A stretch of 64,000 nt of DNA from Maribacter caenipelagi (GTDB lineage: Bacteria; Bacteroidota; Bacteroidia; Flavobacteriales; Flavobacteriaceae), in the NCBI RefSeq assembly GCF_004364175.1, contig NZ_SNZW01000011.1, forward strand, positions 620,001 through 684,000, written 5' to 3'. Made by a program: the position numbers and the translations under genes. Shown here one piece after another: positions 840-10,560 of this stretch (its first letter is position 1; the number at the start of each line of letters is the position of its first letter). The notes under the pieces were generated by a model. It was not told the origin of the DNA, did no database searches, and saw only the letters and a program-made list of their open reading frames with translations.

Positions 840-3242
840 TTATGTTTTAGATGTGAATTGAATTATTGCTTTTTGCATATCGTGATGCTGGTTGTAGAGC
901 TTCATTATTTCTTCGTTTTCCTGTCCATCGGTCAAATAGGCGGCATATACTTCCTTCGGAACTTCGAGACGGAAAATGTTACTTTCCCTGCCAATTTTGA
1001 TAAACATTTCGGTGTACTTGCGCGGTCCTGAAAGATTGTTCTTGATGGATTTTAATTGGTTCAGGTCGTGGCTCGATAGGTTAAGCCTTTTGACCAATTC
1101 GTCATAGCCCTTTTCGTTATTCAGGCTGTAAATGACTTGGGTGTTTTCAAGAATACTCGCTGAAGTTGAGTTGTTCGGTAGCTGATTTATGGATTGCAGA
1201 ATAATCCCAATCGCACCATTCTGTTTACGGATGGCTTGATAGTAAAATTCCACGCTTTCCAATACGTTTTCAAATTTCAGTTGTTTGGCAAACTCATCAA
1301 AAAGGATGATTCCCTTTTCAGCACGATTCTTCCAGATGGTTCTTTGAATGGCAGACTTGATGAGCTTGAGCATCACAGACAGGATTTCCTTGTTGTCTTT
1401 GACTTCATCCAGTTCAAAGACTATCAAGCGTTTGTCCTCTATTTTATAGGTTTGGTCTTCACTTACTTCAAACAGAAAGCTATATAGACCATCGCCGACA
1501 TATTCGGACATTACGTGCAAAAAGCTCGTGACATTGAAGTAGTCGGGATGGATTTTTAGGTTGCTCAGAAGGTCGTTCTGATTCCTTTCTATAAAGCTGT
1601 AAAAACCATCTAAAGAGTGATTTTCAGAAACGCTATCGTAATAATGGCGCAATATCTTTTTAACTGATACCGATTGTGCTTTGTTTACTTTTAAATCCGA
1701 AGCAAAGAGTTCAAACAAGAAAACGGATAAGTCTTCCAATCGTTCCGGTGTAAGGTCATTGGTATCACTTATGTAAAAAGGATTGATGCCTAAGTTCTTT
1801 CCACTTTCGTAGCGAAGCACCGTGTATTTTTCAGGATAGAGTTTGGCAAACTTGGTGTAAGAGCCACCCAAATCTATGATAACCAACCGAACACCACTTT
1901 CAAAAAATTGGCGTAGGATGTTATTGGCCAAAAAGGATTTCCCTTCGCCTGTTGGTGCGAAGATGGCGAAGTTCCGTGCTTTTATTCGTTTCTTCTTTTC
2001 ATCCCAAACATCCTTAAGAACAGGAATGTTATGTTCACGGTCATTAAAGATGATTCCGGTAGTATCAGAATTGTAATTGGTGTTATTGATGAACAGGCAA
2101 AGTGCGTGCTTTAAATCTGTTACGTATAAATTATTATTTGAGAAGTTAGATGAGAAACAGCAATAACTATTCAGGATGTAATTTTTACGTTCTTCGCCTC
2201 TGGGATAGTATGGGATGATATCCAGTTCCTTAAATTCGGTCTTTATTTTTGAACCGATTCGACTTAGATTCTCAGGGTTTTTATCCCAATACACAATGTT
2301 TAAATGACCACGAATAATGCGTGCATTATCATCGGCATTGATTTGGTCAAGGATGTGCTGAATTTTCCCTAAAACCACTTTATTCTGTGAACCGAAATTT
2401 GAACTTTTATTGAGTTCTTCAATCTTTTTATCCAGTAGCTTGCGCCACTTCTGTTTGTCATCGAGATATAGGATTTGGTTGACGATATGGTTCTCATTAA
2501 GCGTAAGCCCTAAACCATCAATAAACCCTTGATGAAACACAAAATCGTCAGAAGTGAATTTCTCATTGGTTTTGCTACTCTGTACACTTTCCCCAAAGCA
2601 CAGTTCGCTGTTGATGGCCAGGGCATCAAAATGGTTTTCGCCAATATTGACGCTTTTTTTGTCCAGTAAAATATCGGTATCGTAGCCTTCATTAAAGCCA
2701 TTGAAATAGGCACTTGTTAGTTGCTGTATCTCTTCCGCTTTAAGCGAAACAAAATCCATCTTTCGGCTATTATTGATGAAGGAAACCGAATCGCTAACCG
2801 AGTTTACAAAGCTTTTAATATTGTCATCCAGTTCCTGTACGATTCCTTTTGAAACTTTTCTGAAAGGGTTGACGTATTTCGGATTGTTGAGTGCCTTATT
2901 TTTGGTCAATATGAAGAACAAATAGCAGCTGTGCTCGATATGTCCACGACCTTTAAAATGCTCGTGGGTAGCTTTTTCCAAAAAGGTGGAATTCGGAAGT
3001 TGTTCTGAAGAATAGGATTTCTTCAAGTAGATATCCTGTTTATGAACCACAGTACCAACTGGCAAAGACTTTAATGCCTGAAACCAAGCACCGTGCATAT
3101 CTTCAAAATCCTTTTCAGACAACGAGTATATTTCCGGCAGATTTCCTTTGTAGCACAAAATAACATTGCCATTATTGGCAAATACGATATTGTCCTGAAT
3201 ATCTACGATGGGTTGATATGCCGAAAGGTTAATCTTGTTCAT
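840..3242 (-). CDS. traG: TraG-family conjugation ATPase (VirB4-type)
   Basis: The protein has 800 residues, the usual size for Bacteroidota TraG, which is the VirB4-like ATPase energising the type IV secretion channel (not the coupling protein of the same letter in other systems). The N-terminal half carries the TraG N-terminal domain. Walker A APTGEGKS is at residues 429-436 and Walker B GIILFDEF near 644-651, followed by a QSINQLP segment typical of the family's sensor region. The start overlaps the end of traF by 14 bp, which suggests translational coupling. It acts at the cytoplasmic face of the inner membrane. No frameshift or missing motif is seen, so the machine looks intact here. Confidence 0.95.
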   Translation of the reverse strand: MNKINLSAYQPIVDIQDNIVFANNGNVILCYKGNLPEIYSLSEKDFEDMHGAWFQALKSLPVGTVVHKQDIYLKKSYSSEQLPNSTFLEKATHEHFKGRGHIEHSCYLFFILTKNKALNNPKYVNPFRKVSKGIVQELDDNIKSFVNSVSDSVSFINNSRKMDFVSLKAEEIQQLTSAYFNGFNEGYDTDILLDKKSVNIGENHFDALAINSELCFGESVQSSKTNEKFTSDDFVFHQGFIDGLGLTLNENHIVNQILYLDDKQKWRKLLDKKIEELNKSSNFGSQNKVVLGKIQHILDQINADDNARIIRGHLNIVYWDKNPENLSRIGSKIKTEFKELDIIPYYPRGEERKNYILNSYCCFSSNFSNNNLYVTDLKHALCLFINNTNYNSDTTGIIFNDREHNIPVLKDVWDEKKKRIKARNFAIFAPTGEGKSFLANNILRQFFESGVRLVIIDLGGSYTKFAKLYPEKYTVLRYESGKNLGINPFYISDTNDLTPERLEDLSVFLFELFASDLKVNKAQSVSVKKILRHYYDSVSENHSLDGFYSFIERNQNDLLSNLKIHPDYFNVTSFLHVMSEYVGDGLYSFLFEVSEDQTYKIEDKRLIVFELDEVKDNKEILSVMLKLIKSAIQRTIWKNRAEKGIILFDEFAKQLKFENVLESVEFYYQAIRKQNGAIGIILQSINQLPNNSTSASILENTQVIYSLNNEKGYDELVKRLNLSSHDLNQLKSIKNNLSGPRKYTEMFIKIGRESNIFRLEVPKEVYAAYLTDGQENEEIMKLYNQHHDMQKAIIQFTSKT

Positions 3243-6716: not shown

Positions 6717-7452
6717 AATCTTTGTTTTTAGTGGTTCGCAAGTTGTCCTTGATTTGGGACGCTTGTTTTTTGTTTGGTTTGTTTTCCTCGTCGAATATTT
6801 CGGTTCTGTCCATCCAGTTGATGGCTACGGCTCGCCAATCTCTGATTTCCTTGCCATCGCCAGTTTGCCAATTTCTGGTCTGGTAATGCTCATAGAATTT
6901 TTTAGCTTCATCAGCATCAAAACCTTTTTCTTCAAAAAAAATAAAAACGGCCTGCCAGCCCTTTGGTTGTTTTATATAGTTTTCTTGTTTGATATTGTTT
7001 GTATTAGATACCAATGCTTGTCCATCTATGGGACGGTGTTGGTTCACAACCTGTCCATTTTTGGGATGGTGGTGTCCCTCAAGCGGTACACCTCTGGGAT
7101 GGTACTGTTCCGCAAGTTGTTCTAATATGGGATTGTACTGTCCCACAACCGGTTCATCACTTGTCCCAATAATGGCCATCTTTATTTTGCTGCCTTTGTA
7201 GGGATTGTTGGAAGGGAAATAGGTTAAGTATTGCCAAGAATCTAACTCGACGATGCATCTGTGATATGTAGACTTAGAACCTATTTTAGCACATCGCATC
7301 AAATCGCGACGGTTTACATAAAATTCATCCATAAAGCGGCAACTGTTCCATTCTTGGAATAGCGCCATATACAAACTGATATGGGATGGGTTAAGGCGGT
7401 CATCAAAATAGAACTTTTCAAAAGCCGCATTAAGTAGCTTTATATAGTTCAT
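6700..7452 (-). CDS. Replication-initiation-like protein with winged-helix N-terminus and four 11-residue repeats
   Basis: The 250-residue protein starts MNYIKLLNAAFEKF. Residues 16-90 look like the winged-helix domain of plasmid/phage initiators and DnaD-like proteins (LNPSHISLYMALFQEWN, GSKSTYHRCIVELD). Residues 104-147 hold four tandem 11-residue units, each with an x-Q/H-Y/H-x-P core, encoded by exact 33-bp periodicity. The C-terminal region has KGWQAVFIFFEEKGF and RDWRAVAINWMDR, as in proteins paired with DnaC-like loaders. It overlaps dnaC by 17 bp and lies 3 bp after the HTH gene. I infer an initiator or loader adaptor; no nuclease or relaxase motif is visible. Confidence 0.7.
   Translation of the reverse strand: MNYIKLLNAAFEKFYFDDRLNPSHISLYMALFQEWNSCRFMDEFYVNRRDLMRCAKIGSKSTYHRCIVELDSWQYLTYFPSNNPYKGSKIKMAIIGTSDEPVVGQYNPILEQLAEQYHPRGVPLEGHHHPKNGQVVNQHRPIDGQALVSNTNNIKQENYIKQPKGWQAVFIFFEEKGFDADEAKKFYEHYQTRNWQTGDGKEIRDWRAVAINWMDRTEIFDEENKPNKKQASQIKDNLRTTKNKDYGQPL
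7029..7160. repeat. Four tandem 33-bp degenerate repeats inside the replication-like gene
   Basis: The motif TGGGAYKGT starts at 7029, 7062, 7095 and 7128, exactly 33 bp apart. Each unit continues with a CAA at the same offset in all four copies. Because 33 is a multiple of three, the repeats stay in frame and give 11-residue protein repeats. Spacing and position within an initiator-like gene resemble replication iterons, although the same pattern could come from selection on the protein. Confidence 0.8.
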
Positions 7453-7455
7453 CGC

Positions 7456-7740
7456 TTAAGAATTTAGACCGTGGTGCACACGGTTGGCATCCATAACTTT
7501 TTGAATTTCCTCGGTATCGTAATAGATAATGCCACCCACCTTGGTGTATGGTAATGTGCCATTGATACGAAGATTTTGTAAAGTGCCTGGACTTACTTGT
7601 AGCAAGTCCATAACCTCAGAAGATTTGAGGTATTTTTTGAGTTTCCCGCTGGCTTGTCTGGTAAGTAATTGTTTAATGTCATCGAGCAATTCCATTTTGA
7701 ATTCCCGAAGGTCGTCTGTGGTAATAATACTTGTTGGCAT
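7456..7740 (-). CDS. Excisionase-like helix-turn-helix protein (HTH_17)
   Basis: A 94-residue DNA-binding protein. Residues 38-86 form a MerR-like HTH_17 domain (LKSSEVMDLLQVSPGTL, LPYTKVGGIIYYDTEEI), the fold of Xis2-type excisionases and small element regulators. The first 35 residues are a charged helix. It is the first gene of a leftward three-gene set with the replication-like protein and the DnaC-like ATPase, 3 bp from the next start, and its upstream region contains inverted repeats and the neighbouring rteC. In CTnDOT, RteC activates an operon that begins with comparable xis genes, so this is a plausible excisionase, but binding to att DNA is not shown. Confidence 0.78.
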   Translation of the reverse strand: MPTSIITTDDLREFKMELLDDIKQLLTRQASGKLKKYLKSSEVMDLLQVSPGTLQNLRINGTLPYTKVGGIIYYDTEEIQKVMDANRVHHGLNS

Positions 7741-7761
7741 AATAGAACGGTTTTAAAAGAA

Positions 7762-7800
7762 AGGGACTATCTGGGTTTATGATTTTAAATGATAGTCCCT
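7762..7800. promoter_or_regulatory. 10-bp perfect inverted repeat ahead of the xis-like gene
   Basis: AGGGACTATC (7762-7771) is the exact inverse of GATAGTCCCT (7791-7800), with a 19-bp spacer. It lies 22 bp before the xis-like start, so it may be an operator or a 5'-leader hairpin controlling that operon. Function is inferred from position only. Confidence 0.5.
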
Positions 7801-7862
7801 GACCTGATTTGACTTTCGTTCTACAAATTTGAATAGGTTTATTGGATTTTATTCCCCAGTAC

Positions 7863-7877
7863 GACCGTACTACGGTC
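7863..7877. promoter_or_regulatory. Palindrome of CCGTA/TACGG type, candidate RteC operator
   Basis: A 7+1+7 palindrome, GACCGTACTACGGTC, lies 123 bp upstream of the xis-like gene. The same half sites recur at 8003-8013, 9064-9079 and 9086-9101. In CTnDOT, RteC binds inverted repeats upstream of the excision operon, and this site occupies a comparable place. The assignment is inferred. Confidence 0.5.
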
Positions 7878-7985
7878 AAAATTTAACATTTTGAAATTTG
7901 ATGGGTTTTGTAGTATTATGGTGCTTCTAAAGTGGAAACGGTGTGCTAAATCATATCAAATTATATGAAGACGCCTTCCAAAATA

Positions 7986-8019
7986 AAAAGACCGTAGGTC
8001 AACCGTAGTACGGTCTTTT
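7986..8019 (-). terminator. Hairpin terminator after rteC
   Basis: AAAAGACCGTA (7986-7996) and TACGGTCTTTT (8009-8019) form an 11-bp stem with a 12-base loop, 20 bp past the rteC stop and flanked by A/T runs. It would act as an intrinsic terminator in the leftward direction. The right half also contains a CCGTA-G-TACGG palindrome (8003-8013), so it may double as an operator. Confidence 0.7.
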
Positions 8020-8039
8020 GTTAACAGTAAAATAGCTTG

Positions 8040-8876
8040 TTATTCTTCGCTTTTGTCCATTTCTATCAGTAACGAGGTGGAAAGCTCATCGAGAAATAGT
8101 GTCCTACTGTTCTTGCGGTTTTTGATGTCCTGATAGGTTTTGTAGATGTCCTTTGGCTCAATATCGAAAAGCTGTTGCATTTTTTTGGAAACCTGCATTA
8201 TGGCTTGATTATCCTGTTTGCCCAATCCCTTTGAGCAGAGTGCATAAACGAGTTCAACATAATCTGTATTTGAAAATGGCCAATGTATCTTTTCAATTGG
8301 TTTAGCACCATTTAATTTGCCGTTCAATCCTTTCCGAATTCGATGCTTTTTTTCATCCAAATATATCACTAACAAATCATACGCCTTGTATTTGCCAAGT
8401 AGCATATCCCTTGGTGTGCAAAACTCTGGGTCTTGAAAGTAAAATTTGGAAGTTGTTATATGGAATGTTTCGAGATAATCTCTGGTGTAGTATTCCTTGT
8501 CAAAATGGGTAGCACCGGAATTTACATAACGTCCAAAATCGATATTGTACAGGAAAAAGCGATTTACTTTGCTGATTTTCTTTTTAATCGATTTTAGTTG
8601 GGCATCCTTATCGCCCTTTGGAAGTTGAATCTCAAAGGAATGTATTTCTGAAAAGTAGATGAGCCTTATAAGAGGAACCTGCTTTACCTTTTTAAAGAAA
8701 TTTATTTCATCTTGTATCGTCTGAAATTTAGTGTCAATGATTTCCTTTTTGTAAGAACTCAATAGTTTGCGACAGGCTTTGATGGAAAGATATGCCTGTT
8801 CTAAAATATTTCCATTCTGAATTTTAAACTCATCCAGATCCTTTAATAATTTTTTTGATTGTAATTGCGAATTCAT
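8040..8876 (-). CDS. rteC: RteC-family regulator of element excision
   Basis: The 278-residue protein matches the RteC family of Bacteroidota conjugative transposons. The most telling segment is IDFGRYVNSGATHFDKEYYTR (around residues 113-134), followed by FHITTSKFYFQDPEF and a C-terminal helical region. In CTnDOT, RteC is the transcriptional activator of the excision operon under the RteA/RteB two-component system. No RteA or RteB is in this window. Here rteC is followed at its 3' side by the xis-like operon, separated by a hairpin terminator and CCGTA/TACGG inverted repeats. It ends DELSTSLLIEMDKSEE with no sign of truncation. Confidence 0.88.
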   Translation of the reverse strand: MNSQLQSKKLLKDLDEFKIQNGNILEQAYLSIKACRKLLSSYKKEIIDTKFQTIQDEINFFKKVKQVPLIRLIYFSEIHSFEIQLPKGDKDAQLKSIKKKISKVNRFFLYNIDFGRYVNSGATHFDKEYYTRDYLETFHITTSKFYFQDPEFCTPRDMLLGKYKAYDLLVIYLDEKKHRIRKGLNGKLNGAKPIEKIHWPFSNTDYVELVYALCSKGLGKQDNQAIMQVSKKMQQLFDIEPKDIYKTYQDIKNRKNSRTLFLDELSTSLLIEMDKSEE

Positions 8877-9063
8877 AAGCAGGAACTTTAACGTTGTAAA
8901 CCATAGAAATGGGATTTAGTTGATACGATTTATTGGTGGTTGTCATAGTCCTACAAAATGATGTAAATGAAAGTCACGGAACATAAAATTTGTGGCTCAT
9001 TGTTGTATTTTAGGGAACTATGTGTAAAGTAGCTTTACTTTGTAATTGTACAAGGAAAACGTG

Positions 9064-9102
9064 CCGTATATAATTACGGAATAGTCCGTATTTTTCTACG
9101 GA
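9064..9102. promoter_or_regulatory. Two CCGTA-N6-TACGG inverted repeats upstream of rteC
   Basis: CCGTA/TACGG pairs lie at 9064-9079 and 9086-9101, each with a 6-base spacer, in the 275-bp gap between rteC and the LuxR-type gene. The same half sites occur with a 1-base spacer on the other side of rteC. They could be operators for rteC autoregulation or, since they sit just past the LuxR stop at 9152, part of a terminator. I see no other feature in 8877-9151. Confidence 0.5.
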
Positions 9103-9151
9103 TTATTTGTTAGGTACTGCAAATAGTGGTTTTTATATAAACTCAATTTAC

Positions 9152-10066
9152 TTACTTTTTCTTCCGAAATCGCTTCAAAAATTCACGCCTATTCTTTACG
9201 CCCGTTTTTTTGAAGATATTTGATGCGTGTTTTGATACGGTACTTTCTGCAATGAATAAATCTTTGGCGATGTTTCTGTAGCTTAAATTACTTAAAATTG
9301 ACAAAGCCACTTCGATTTCTCTACGGGTCAAATCTTCATAGATGATTTTGCGCTCGACCGATTCGTCACGTTGTTTTTTCTTCAACGCAAAGACCTCATA
9401 CATTCGGTTATTGTTTTCTATGAAGTACAAATACCTATCTGCTTCAATTGCTGTTATGGCAAAGAAAGCCAAGTTCATTACGGTAAATGTTATCCATTGA
9501 TAATCGCCGATGACTGTGCAAATAGGCAACAGGGCAATACTTGCTACACTTACCATTGAGAGTTTGTTTCGTCTTACTATGAAAGGATTTGGATTGCTGG
9601 GATTCGATATACGACGATAGAAAATAAACAGAAAAACAAAAGCGACAGCAGATATAGGAATGGTAAATAGAAAGCGTGCAGAATTAAGTGAATCTGTCAG
9701 AAAATAAGGGATAAGAAACAGTACTACAAAACTCACGCTTGCGAGTATAGCAAGGTTTCTTATGGATGAATTGAATTTCAAAACTACAATATCGTATTCT
9801 TTATAGAGATAGTAAACAATATAAACGCACAATGCAATGGCGACACCATACGTGATAATATACTGTAAAATAAATGGACCAGGAAAGTCGTCAATTGGCA
9901 AAAAACCACCAGTAGCATTATAAGCAACAAACAGGATTCCGAGGTAGAGAAAACGCCTTAGACTACTTCGCGTTTTCTTTCTGGAAAAGTAGAGTGTAAG
10001 CAATACTATGAACGTATCTATTAATAGATAGAAAAAAGTTGTCCAATGTATCGATGTGCCAAACAT
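9152..10066 (-). CDS. Seven-helix membrane protein with C-terminal LuxR-type HTH
   Basis: The 304-residue protein has about seven transmembrane segments (roughly 11-27, 38-54, 65-88, 103-123, 132-150, 170-187 and 190-206). A linker follows, then a LuxR/GerE helix-turn-helix at about 243-300 with LTRREIEVALSILSNLSYRN and ESTVSKHASNIFKKTGVKNR. A membrane-tethered one-component regulator is the simplest reading: ligand or membrane state is sensed by the helices and DNA is bound from the membrane. It lies 5 bp downstream of the asparaginase-like gene, so the two are cotranscribed. Its target is unknown; it may control the neighbouring metal or excision genes. Confidence 0.8.
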   Translation of the reverse strand: MFGTSIHWTTFFYLLIDTFIVLLTLYFSRKKTRSSLRRFLYLGILFVAYNATGGFLPIDDFPGPFILQYIITYGVAIALCVYIVYYLYKEYDIVVLKFNSSIRNLAILASVSFVVLFLIPYFLTDSLNSARFLFTIPISAVAFVFLFIFYRRISNPSNPNPFIVRRNKLSMVSVASIALLPICTVIGDYQWITFTVMNLAFFAITAIEADRYLYFIENNNRMYEVFALKKKQRDESVERKIIYEDLTRREIEVALSILSNLSYRNIAKDLFIAESTVSKHASNIFKKTGVKNRREFLKRFRKKK

Positions 10067-10071
10067 TTACG

Positions 10072-10560
10072 CTACTTCTCATTGCGCTCAAATTTGTTGG
10101 TTTCTAAATTCTTGGAAACATTGTCCCAATTAAAAATTTGTCCGTTCATAGCAATATAAACATCCGGTTTTAGAAGCTGTAATGAGCTAATTGCATACCC
10201 CAAATTAAAGGGTGCATCTGTATCTGCAGATGAACCCAAAATGAAAGACCCAACTAAAACGATTGTTTTGTTCAAATTGAGTTTTCCTATATATTTTGCG
10301 GTATCCTCCATCGTGAAAGTACCGTGGGTAATCAGTATCTTAGTCGCATTAGTTTCCTTTATCTTGCGCACCAACAGCTTTCTGTCATCATCTGTTACGG
10401 CACGACTGTCTTTTTTAAAAACATTTTCTATGGTGTATTCAAAATCGATATTGGCTTTATTCAAAAAATCTTCAATCCCTACGTTGGATGAAGTAATACC
10501 AACATCATCTGTATAGTCCAGTCCCTCGATTGTGCCGCCTGTTGTGAAAATATGAATCAT
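10072..10560 (-). CDS. Single-domain asparaginase-like protein
   Basis: The 162-residue protein is the N-terminal domain of the asparaginase/glutaminase family. TTGGTIEG (residues 6-13) and ITHGTFTMEDT (77-87) hold the two catalytic threonines of that family, and DTDAP (112-116) lies at the expected end of the catalytic core. Full asparaginases are about 330 residues with a C-terminal domain that completes the active site in the dimer; that domain is absent, though the ending KFERNEK looks natural. Standalone versions of this domain occur in Bacteroidota. It precedes a membrane LuxR gene by 5 bp. Enzymatic activity is possible but not assured. Confidence 0.75.
   Translation of the reverse strand: MIHIFTTGGTIEGLDYTDDVGITSSNVGIEDFLNKANIDFEYTIENVFKKDSRAVTDDDRKLLVRKIKETNATKILITHGTFTMEDTAKYIGKLNLNKTIVLVGSFILGSSADTDAPFNLGYAISSLQLLKPDVYIAMNGQIFNWDNVSKNLETNKFERNEK

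Follow-up and report, generated by a model that had tools for sequence, protein, structure and literature searches.

The two gaps that flank rteC in the 64-kb window (the whole stretch of DNA that was analysed) appear to carry the sites of two different regulators, which together would form a two-step switch for the excision of an integrative conjugative element. In the first step a one-component membrane regulator of the GerE type would bind an array at 9064-9101 as two side-by-side dimers, with 22 bp between the units, next to the -33 promoter element of rteC, and would activate that gene. In the second step RteC would bind two tripartite operators located between rteC and xis. O2 (7853-7876) keeps a fixed distance to the leader of the excision operon, and O1 (7991-8014) stands upstream of O2 by one helix-phased interval; once both are occupied, probably with the intervening DNA looped, the excision operon would be switched on. 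We put the probability of this chain, in which looping is an optional part and both binding and the direction of control are inferred from sequence comparison, at roughly 0.72. The features concerned are as follows.

7456..7740, minus strand: xis-like HTH_17 gene, first gene of the excision operon (Pfam PF12728, 1.4e-09)
7741..7820, minus strand: conserved xis leader, with AACGAAAGTCAAATC, a hairpin (arms 7763-7771 and 7791-7799) and a T-rich tract before the xis start
7824..7831, minus strand: proposed -7 element of the excision operon, CAAATTTG (conserved in the alignment; the -7 role is presumed)
7853..7876, minus strand: operator O2, proposed RteC site, 138 bp from O1 (ACCGTA-G-TACGGT-CGTAC-TGGGGA)
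7991..8014, minus strand: operator O1, proposed RteC site (tripartite, ACCGTA-C-TACGGT-TGACC-TACGGT)
8040..8876, minus strand: rteC (Pfam PF09357, 3e-64; AF2 model pLDDT 86.7)
9025..9053, minus strand: proposed rteC promoter (TTG at 9053-9051, 19-nt spacer, TACTTTA at 9031-9025)
9064..9101, no strand assigned: upstream array U, proposed GerE-type operator (half-sites 9064-9068, 9075-9079, 9086-9090 and 9097-9101)
9152..10066, minus strand: gene for the membrane regulator, gerE (Pfam GerE, 4.3e-12; AF2 pLDDT 79.9; hydropathy; sequence matches to LuxR-HTH entries in the PDB)
10072..10560, minus strand: asparaginase-N-terminal-like gene (Pfam PF00710, 2.1e-20)

Read along the minus strand, the genes thus run asparaginase-like, membrane LuxR/GerE-type regulator, rteC and xis-like HTH gene, and a TraG-family conjugative ATPase lies further along (840-3242). 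The rteC product belongs to the RteC family (PF09357, 217.1 bits against a curated cut-off of 25.3, residues 59-276), and its gene adjoins an operon whose first gene (7456-7740) encodes an excisionase-like HTH protein, an order common to most relatives. Named genomes supplied 75 of the loci compared, and 27 came from 17 of 60 related genomes; most of these loci retain the gene order. The asparaginase-like gene accompanies gerE in nearly all loci with a gerE of more than 50% identity and enough flank (L034 has a gerE without this companion), and the asparaginase-N-domain-like gene (10072-10560) is possibly part of the signal.

Four inverted repeats of CCGTA and TACGG had been described in an earlier note, at 7865-7875, 8003-8013, 9064-9079 and 9086-9101, and each was recovered at exactly those positions; within the 64-kb window the exact CCGTA-N1-TACGG pattern occurs only at the first two and the exact CCGTA-N6-TACGG pattern only at the last two. 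Three further features were absent from that description. An additional CCGTA at 7992-7996 renders the 8003 site tripartite, the 8003 and 7865 palindromes are separated by 138 bp, and the four upstream half-sites join without a break into a single array, CCGTA-6-TACGG-6-CCGTA-6-TACGG, with a register of 11 bp and TACGG-N6-CCGTA in its middle.

When up to two mismatches are allowed, the N1 pattern has 23 matches in the window against 10.6 expected, a number reached by 0 of 100 shuffles, and the N6 pattern has 18 against 11.5 expected; as 5 of 100 shuffles equal the latter count, the loose N6 pattern is unremarkable by itself. The window holds 108 five-base half-sites in all, a density that predicts 0.97 for the two gaps, which contain nine. 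Across the 4.28-Mb genome the 15-mer GACCGTANTACGGTC is found with zero or one mismatch solely at the two downstream places (with two mismatches at nine further places, the reversed control giving 7 in all), and the array core CCGTA-6-TACGG-6-CCGTA is exact only in the array at 9064-9101 (with up to two mismatches at one further place; control 4). The test was also made in the reverse direction, from motif to locus, in the same 299 whole genomes of the family that had already been used for the locus search. Sixteen of these contain the exact four-half-site array, at one place each (reversed control 0), and all 16 places adjoin gerE, rteC and xis. The exact downstream pair, for which a distance of 113 to 143 bp from start to start was permitted, occurs at 22 places spread over 20 genomes (control 0), with a spacing of 138 bp in 19 of the 22 and of 137, 139 and 128 in the rest. 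Twenty of these places have a locus of their own, with xis in all 20 and rteC in 19 (the exception being L292), and the remaining two fall in L270 and L273, both with rteC. The half-sites stand at near-constant distances from the rteC and xis start codons across many genera, and conservation in close relatives, the check by which the earlier note had been willing to let its proposal fall, was borne out. At L292/L296 (G263:C1:658386-658536) the downstream operator pair and xis are present and rteC is not adjacent; the sole RteC match in that genome lies about 29 kb from the L292 pair.

Presence of the upstream repeat follows presence of gerE. We scored the upstream pair as present where one CCGTA-N6-TACGG with at most one mismatch lay no more than 330 nt from the rteC start. 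When 1.1 kb or more of upstream sequence was required, 108 loci remained, and the pair was present in 56 of 58 with gerE compared to 0 of 50 without (Fisher p 7e-29, a value that ignores the relatedness of the loci and, since co-variation in cis tracks phylogeny, exaggerates their independence). Under a laxer demand for flank, satisfied by 195 of 196 loci, the pair was found in 67 of 72 loci with a detected gerE and 1 of 123 without, and this lone locus (L221) displays a cut-off gerE end in its own sequence. The strict four-half-site array (at most 4 mismatches in 20) is found in 50 of 67 loci of the RteC cluster to which the window belongs and in 3 of 15 of the next cluster.

The letters of the upstream repeat also change with the GerE-type protein. 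The five gerE-bearing loci that lack the pair (L056, L065, L171, L180, L190) all encode V-R-KHASNIF in the recognition helix, three of them (L056, L065, L190) having motifs such as TTCACAT instead of the pair, and among the distinct helix sequences compared the residue that precedes KHAS is S or T in every array-bearing protein in which it can be seen. In L035/L038, where the recognition helix reads EKTASKHAS, the half-sites are TACGT-type. Two loci (L176, L183) keep the upstream CCGTA..TACG pair while their downstream sites are altered, to ACCCGA..TCGGGT and similar. A further locus, L182, retains the ACCGTA arms downstream with altered partners, and thus does not separate the two readers. 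The upstream CCGTA-N6-TACGG array is therefore most likely, on these comparisons, the site of the GerE-type regulator and not that of RteC. The promoter-like TTG-N19-TACTTTA, which we take to be a promoter from the Bacteroidota consensus and whose TAnnTT columns are conserved in the alignment, starts 10 bp downstream of the array; this placement fits an activator of rteC, the direction being presumed.

The GerE-type protein itself is predicted, from its AF2 model and hydropathy, to have about seven hydrophobic helices (5-217) followed by a C-terminal LuxR/GerE HTH (248-300), the latter also recognised by PF00196 (45.9 bits against a cut-off of 23.5). No receiver domain was found in it, the Pfam search at E 0.001 giving GerE only. 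Foldseek with the model returned no match at E 0.001, and in that search the HTH part aligns with NarL/FixJ-type structures at E-values none of which reached 0.001. A membrane protein of this receptor-like form may be the entry point for a signal from outside.

Evidence on the downstream sites comes from 196 RteC loci, the number left after a starting set of 231 was made non-redundant in downstream sequence (L072 lacks a full RteC frame); their proteins were clustered. Of the 67 loci in the window's cluster, 65 have at least one exact palindrome and 50 have both; the next cluster has 2 of 15 (both palindromes in each), and the 114 others have none. At the same two places other clusters have half-sites of other kinds (ACCCAA/TTGGGT, TCGGTA/TACCGA, ACCTTA/TAAGGT), such that ACCGTA belongs to the window's cluster, ACCCAA to four others (19, 23, 8, 10), and TCGGTA, ACCTTA and others are found elsewhere. 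Within the window's cluster the third half-site of O1 is kept in 57 of 65 loci, and the third element of O2 is TGGGGA, a mismatch to the half-site, in 60 of 65. Five loci of this cluster that lack gerE keep both exact palindromes, and in one of these (L067) the rteC frame is broken; in L037 the gene upstream of rteC is a tyrosine recombinase and no gerE stands beside rteC. In the phylum-wide loci L233-L259 tripartite sites were found in 8 of 27, with L251, L256, L257 and L258 being places already in the set.

Two other candidates for the reader of these sites are disfavoured. The xis genes of L099 and L100 are 89% identical and the leader motif is unchanged, yet both copies of the site differ together, so Xis is not the determinant. 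In one genome (G122) two elements coexist that differ in site type (L148; L220/L288), which makes a host factor unlikely. Co-variation with RteC subfamily, together with a fixed place before the xis leader, makes RteC the probable reader of the downstream palindromes. A mutual-information scan between RteC residues and half-sites was discarded, being confounded by phylogeny. As the same half-site letters are assigned to RteC and the GerE-type protein in the window's lineage, each protein may show some cross-binding to the sites of the other.

The distance between the two downstream copies varies in steps. The leader motif was identified in 140 loci, of which 109 have a site-2 palindrome and 107 were tested for a second copy against dinucleotide shuffles. 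A significant second copy was found in 93 of the 107, at distances of 117-119 (3 loci), 125-128 (22), 135-139 (67) and 196 bp (1), with none of the 93 pairs at 120-124 or 129-134; in the 14 loci without one, the best distances include 72, 81, 107, 108 and 124, off the classes. The classes are separated by about one helical turn, and at least nine changes of class are required on the RteC tree (92 tips). Rayleigh values favour a period near 10-11 bp, in loci that are related and with a period that was fitted. Helical phasing of O1 and O2, as judged from some nine inferred changes and this fitted period, is therefore suggestive. Across the 52 cluster loci whose copies are 138 bp apart, identity is 93-94% in the palindromes and 53% midway between them, and the 33 nt ahead of O2 show conservation too (84%). 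The start of O2 precedes the leader motif by 56 nt in 65 of 66 cluster loci. This spacing is most simply read as a loop, or as cooperative binding to a single face of the helix. The same comparison leads us to propose operator letters for the eight RteC clusters in which an operator pair reached significance.

Several alternatives to this scheme were considered. Chance clustering of a short motif might be entertained given how common five-base half-sites are (108 in the window) and how readily shuffles match the loose N6 count, but it is refuted by the conserved placement across many genera and by reversed controls of 0 in 299 genomes for both composite motifs, and we regard its probability as negligible. 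It is also conceivable that RteC alone reads everything, with the N1 palindromes acting at the excision operon and the N6 array serving as an autoregulatory site; the half-site letters are identical on both sides of rteC in the window's lineage, and an 11-bp step is present in both. However, the upstream pair is missing from rteC loci that lack gerE despite retained downstream sites, its letters stay in L176 and L183 where the RteC sites have altered, and they change with the GerE helix, which together make this explanation unlikely. The same observations bear on two claims of the earlier note. Its idea that RteC works through inverted repeats beside the excision operon fits the downstream palindromes, as they co-vary with RteC and keep a fixed place, but does not extend to the upstream array; and it offered two explanations for the two spacer classes, of which two regulators agrees with an upstream pair that follows gerE and a downstream pair that follows RteC, while two binding modes of RteC is not supported, given the absence of the upstream pair without gerE and its persistence in L176/L183.

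The 8003 site could instead be the rho-independent terminator of rteC and no operator at all, as the minus strand of the window reads AAAGACCGTA-loop-TACGGTCTTTTT. We consider this improbable: in the window's RteC cluster a T4 run follows the site in only 24 of 65 loci and a 9-bp outer stem is possible in only 26 of 65, whereas the third half-site is retained by 57 of 65. In addition, a second copy of the palindrome stands 138 bp away, and other RteC subfamilies replace both copies. In the window's own lineage the operator may nonetheless double as a terminator. A more serious competitor, although not the reading we favour, holds that RteC binds O1 and O2 independently with no loop, the phased spacing reflecting shared descent or some other constraint. 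The dominance of one spacing (138 bp in 55 of 93) could simply be ancestral; against this stand the changes of class, at least nine and about one turn apart, the lack of any significant pair between classes and the poor conservation of the interval.

Between O2 and xis lies the leader, in which the AACGAAAGTCAAA motif is strongly conserved and which folds strongly (z -4.55). Both-side changes were found in 4 of the 5 predicted pairs of its hairpin, counted over a chosen 50 of 60 sequences with no shuffled control; the ten listed sequences omitted from the alignment include several with a quite different stem. The hairpin with its T-rich tract is perhaps an attenuator or a small RNA, possibly comparable to RteR of CTnDOT. 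A search with up to three mismatches gave 6 copies of the leader motif in the window compared to 4.0 expected, one only being exact, and a scan of 7400-9300 against Rfam returned no match at E 1. An antisense match between the leader and the 5' region of rteC, spotted by eye, was dropped as it is not conserved in the alignment. The downstream gap of L022 contains a 53-bp insertion between O2 and the leader hairpin, and several other xis leaders are also about 50 nt longer.

RteC of CTnDOT is described as having a winged-helix fold. For the RteC of the window, modelled on an alignment of 43 of 51 listed sequences, a sequence search of the PDB gave no match at E 1, and Foldseek and VIA-align 2 with the model gave no match at E 0.001 and barely covered residues beyond 185. 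The best rows were translin-like helical bundles (Z 7.0, rmsd 3.1, 117 aligned), in a Z range that is common for the tool; the predicted fold has no confident DNA-binding match.

Some loci may feed rteC through a different input. Of the five loci in the window's cluster that lack gerE, four have sites of the AGGCA type at -113 to -134 from rteC, as do loci of some other clusters; these sites resemble the sigma-54 promoter consensus. Their sigma-54-like score is 21.5 of a possible 22.5 in L037, L039, L044 and L187 and 18.5 in L036, L172, L093, L175, L178, L173 and L157; L067 scores 14.5, and in L139 (18.5) and L181 (19.5) the site lies at other positions. The cluster-8 loci with such sites are L187 and four others. 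A score of 18.5 or more was found in 0 of 72 gerE-bearing loci, and 1 of 195 control stretches scored 19.5. Absence of gerE in L173, L157, L172, L175, L178 and L187 was judged on the roughly 500 bp before the RteC match. The pattern suggests that the input module of rteC has been swapped between a GerE-type and a sigma-54-like form. A wider generalisation, which we advance tentatively and hold at somewhat short of even odds, is that RteC proteins are looping activators, each subfamily with its own tripartite operator (half-site, inverted, direct) present in two copies on the same helix face (about 11, 12 or 13 turns apart), and that the promoter feeding rteC has been exchanged between 7-helix LuxR and sigma-54-like modules with the RteC output module left intact.

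The lac, ara and gal operators are read through DNA loops in a manner that depends on helical phase, and the present system resembles them in having two operator copies whose spacings differ among loci by roughly whole turns of the helix, the likeness here being one of spacing pattern only. NarL/FixJ-type proteins with a LuxR HTH (GerE, NarL, LiaR, VraR, DegU) are similar to the GerE-type protein in the sequence of the C-terminal HTH and in having dimer-type inverted half-sites beside a promoter, but differ in that here no receiver domain was found and seven N-terminal membrane helices are predicted. In CTnDOT the RteC site consists of inverted half-sites that precede the excision promoter; the present locus shows two tripartite operators at phased distances. 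A close parallel is with CTnDOT/CTnERL of Bacteroides, which share an RteC family protein next to an excisionase-like operon and, presumably, a regulator one step above rteC. In CTnDOT RteB activates rteC, whose product controls excision and transfer genes (PMC1976400, PMC10865816). At the present locus the adjacent input gene encodes a single membrane LuxR-type protein, and RteA/RteB were not seen beside rteC. Titles and the opening parts of abstracts in the open literature yielded neither RteC operator letters nor a LuxR-type regulator of rteC. The locus would represent a variant of the CTnDOT-type cascade, alike in its output half and different in its adjacent input gene.

In Bacteroidota a large family of mobile elements spreads under the control of RteC, and the comparison made here predicts which RteC acts on which element. 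It suggests that RteC subfamilies with different half-sites are mutually insulated even within one cell, and it makes DNA looping by RteC addressable by a simple spacing experiment.
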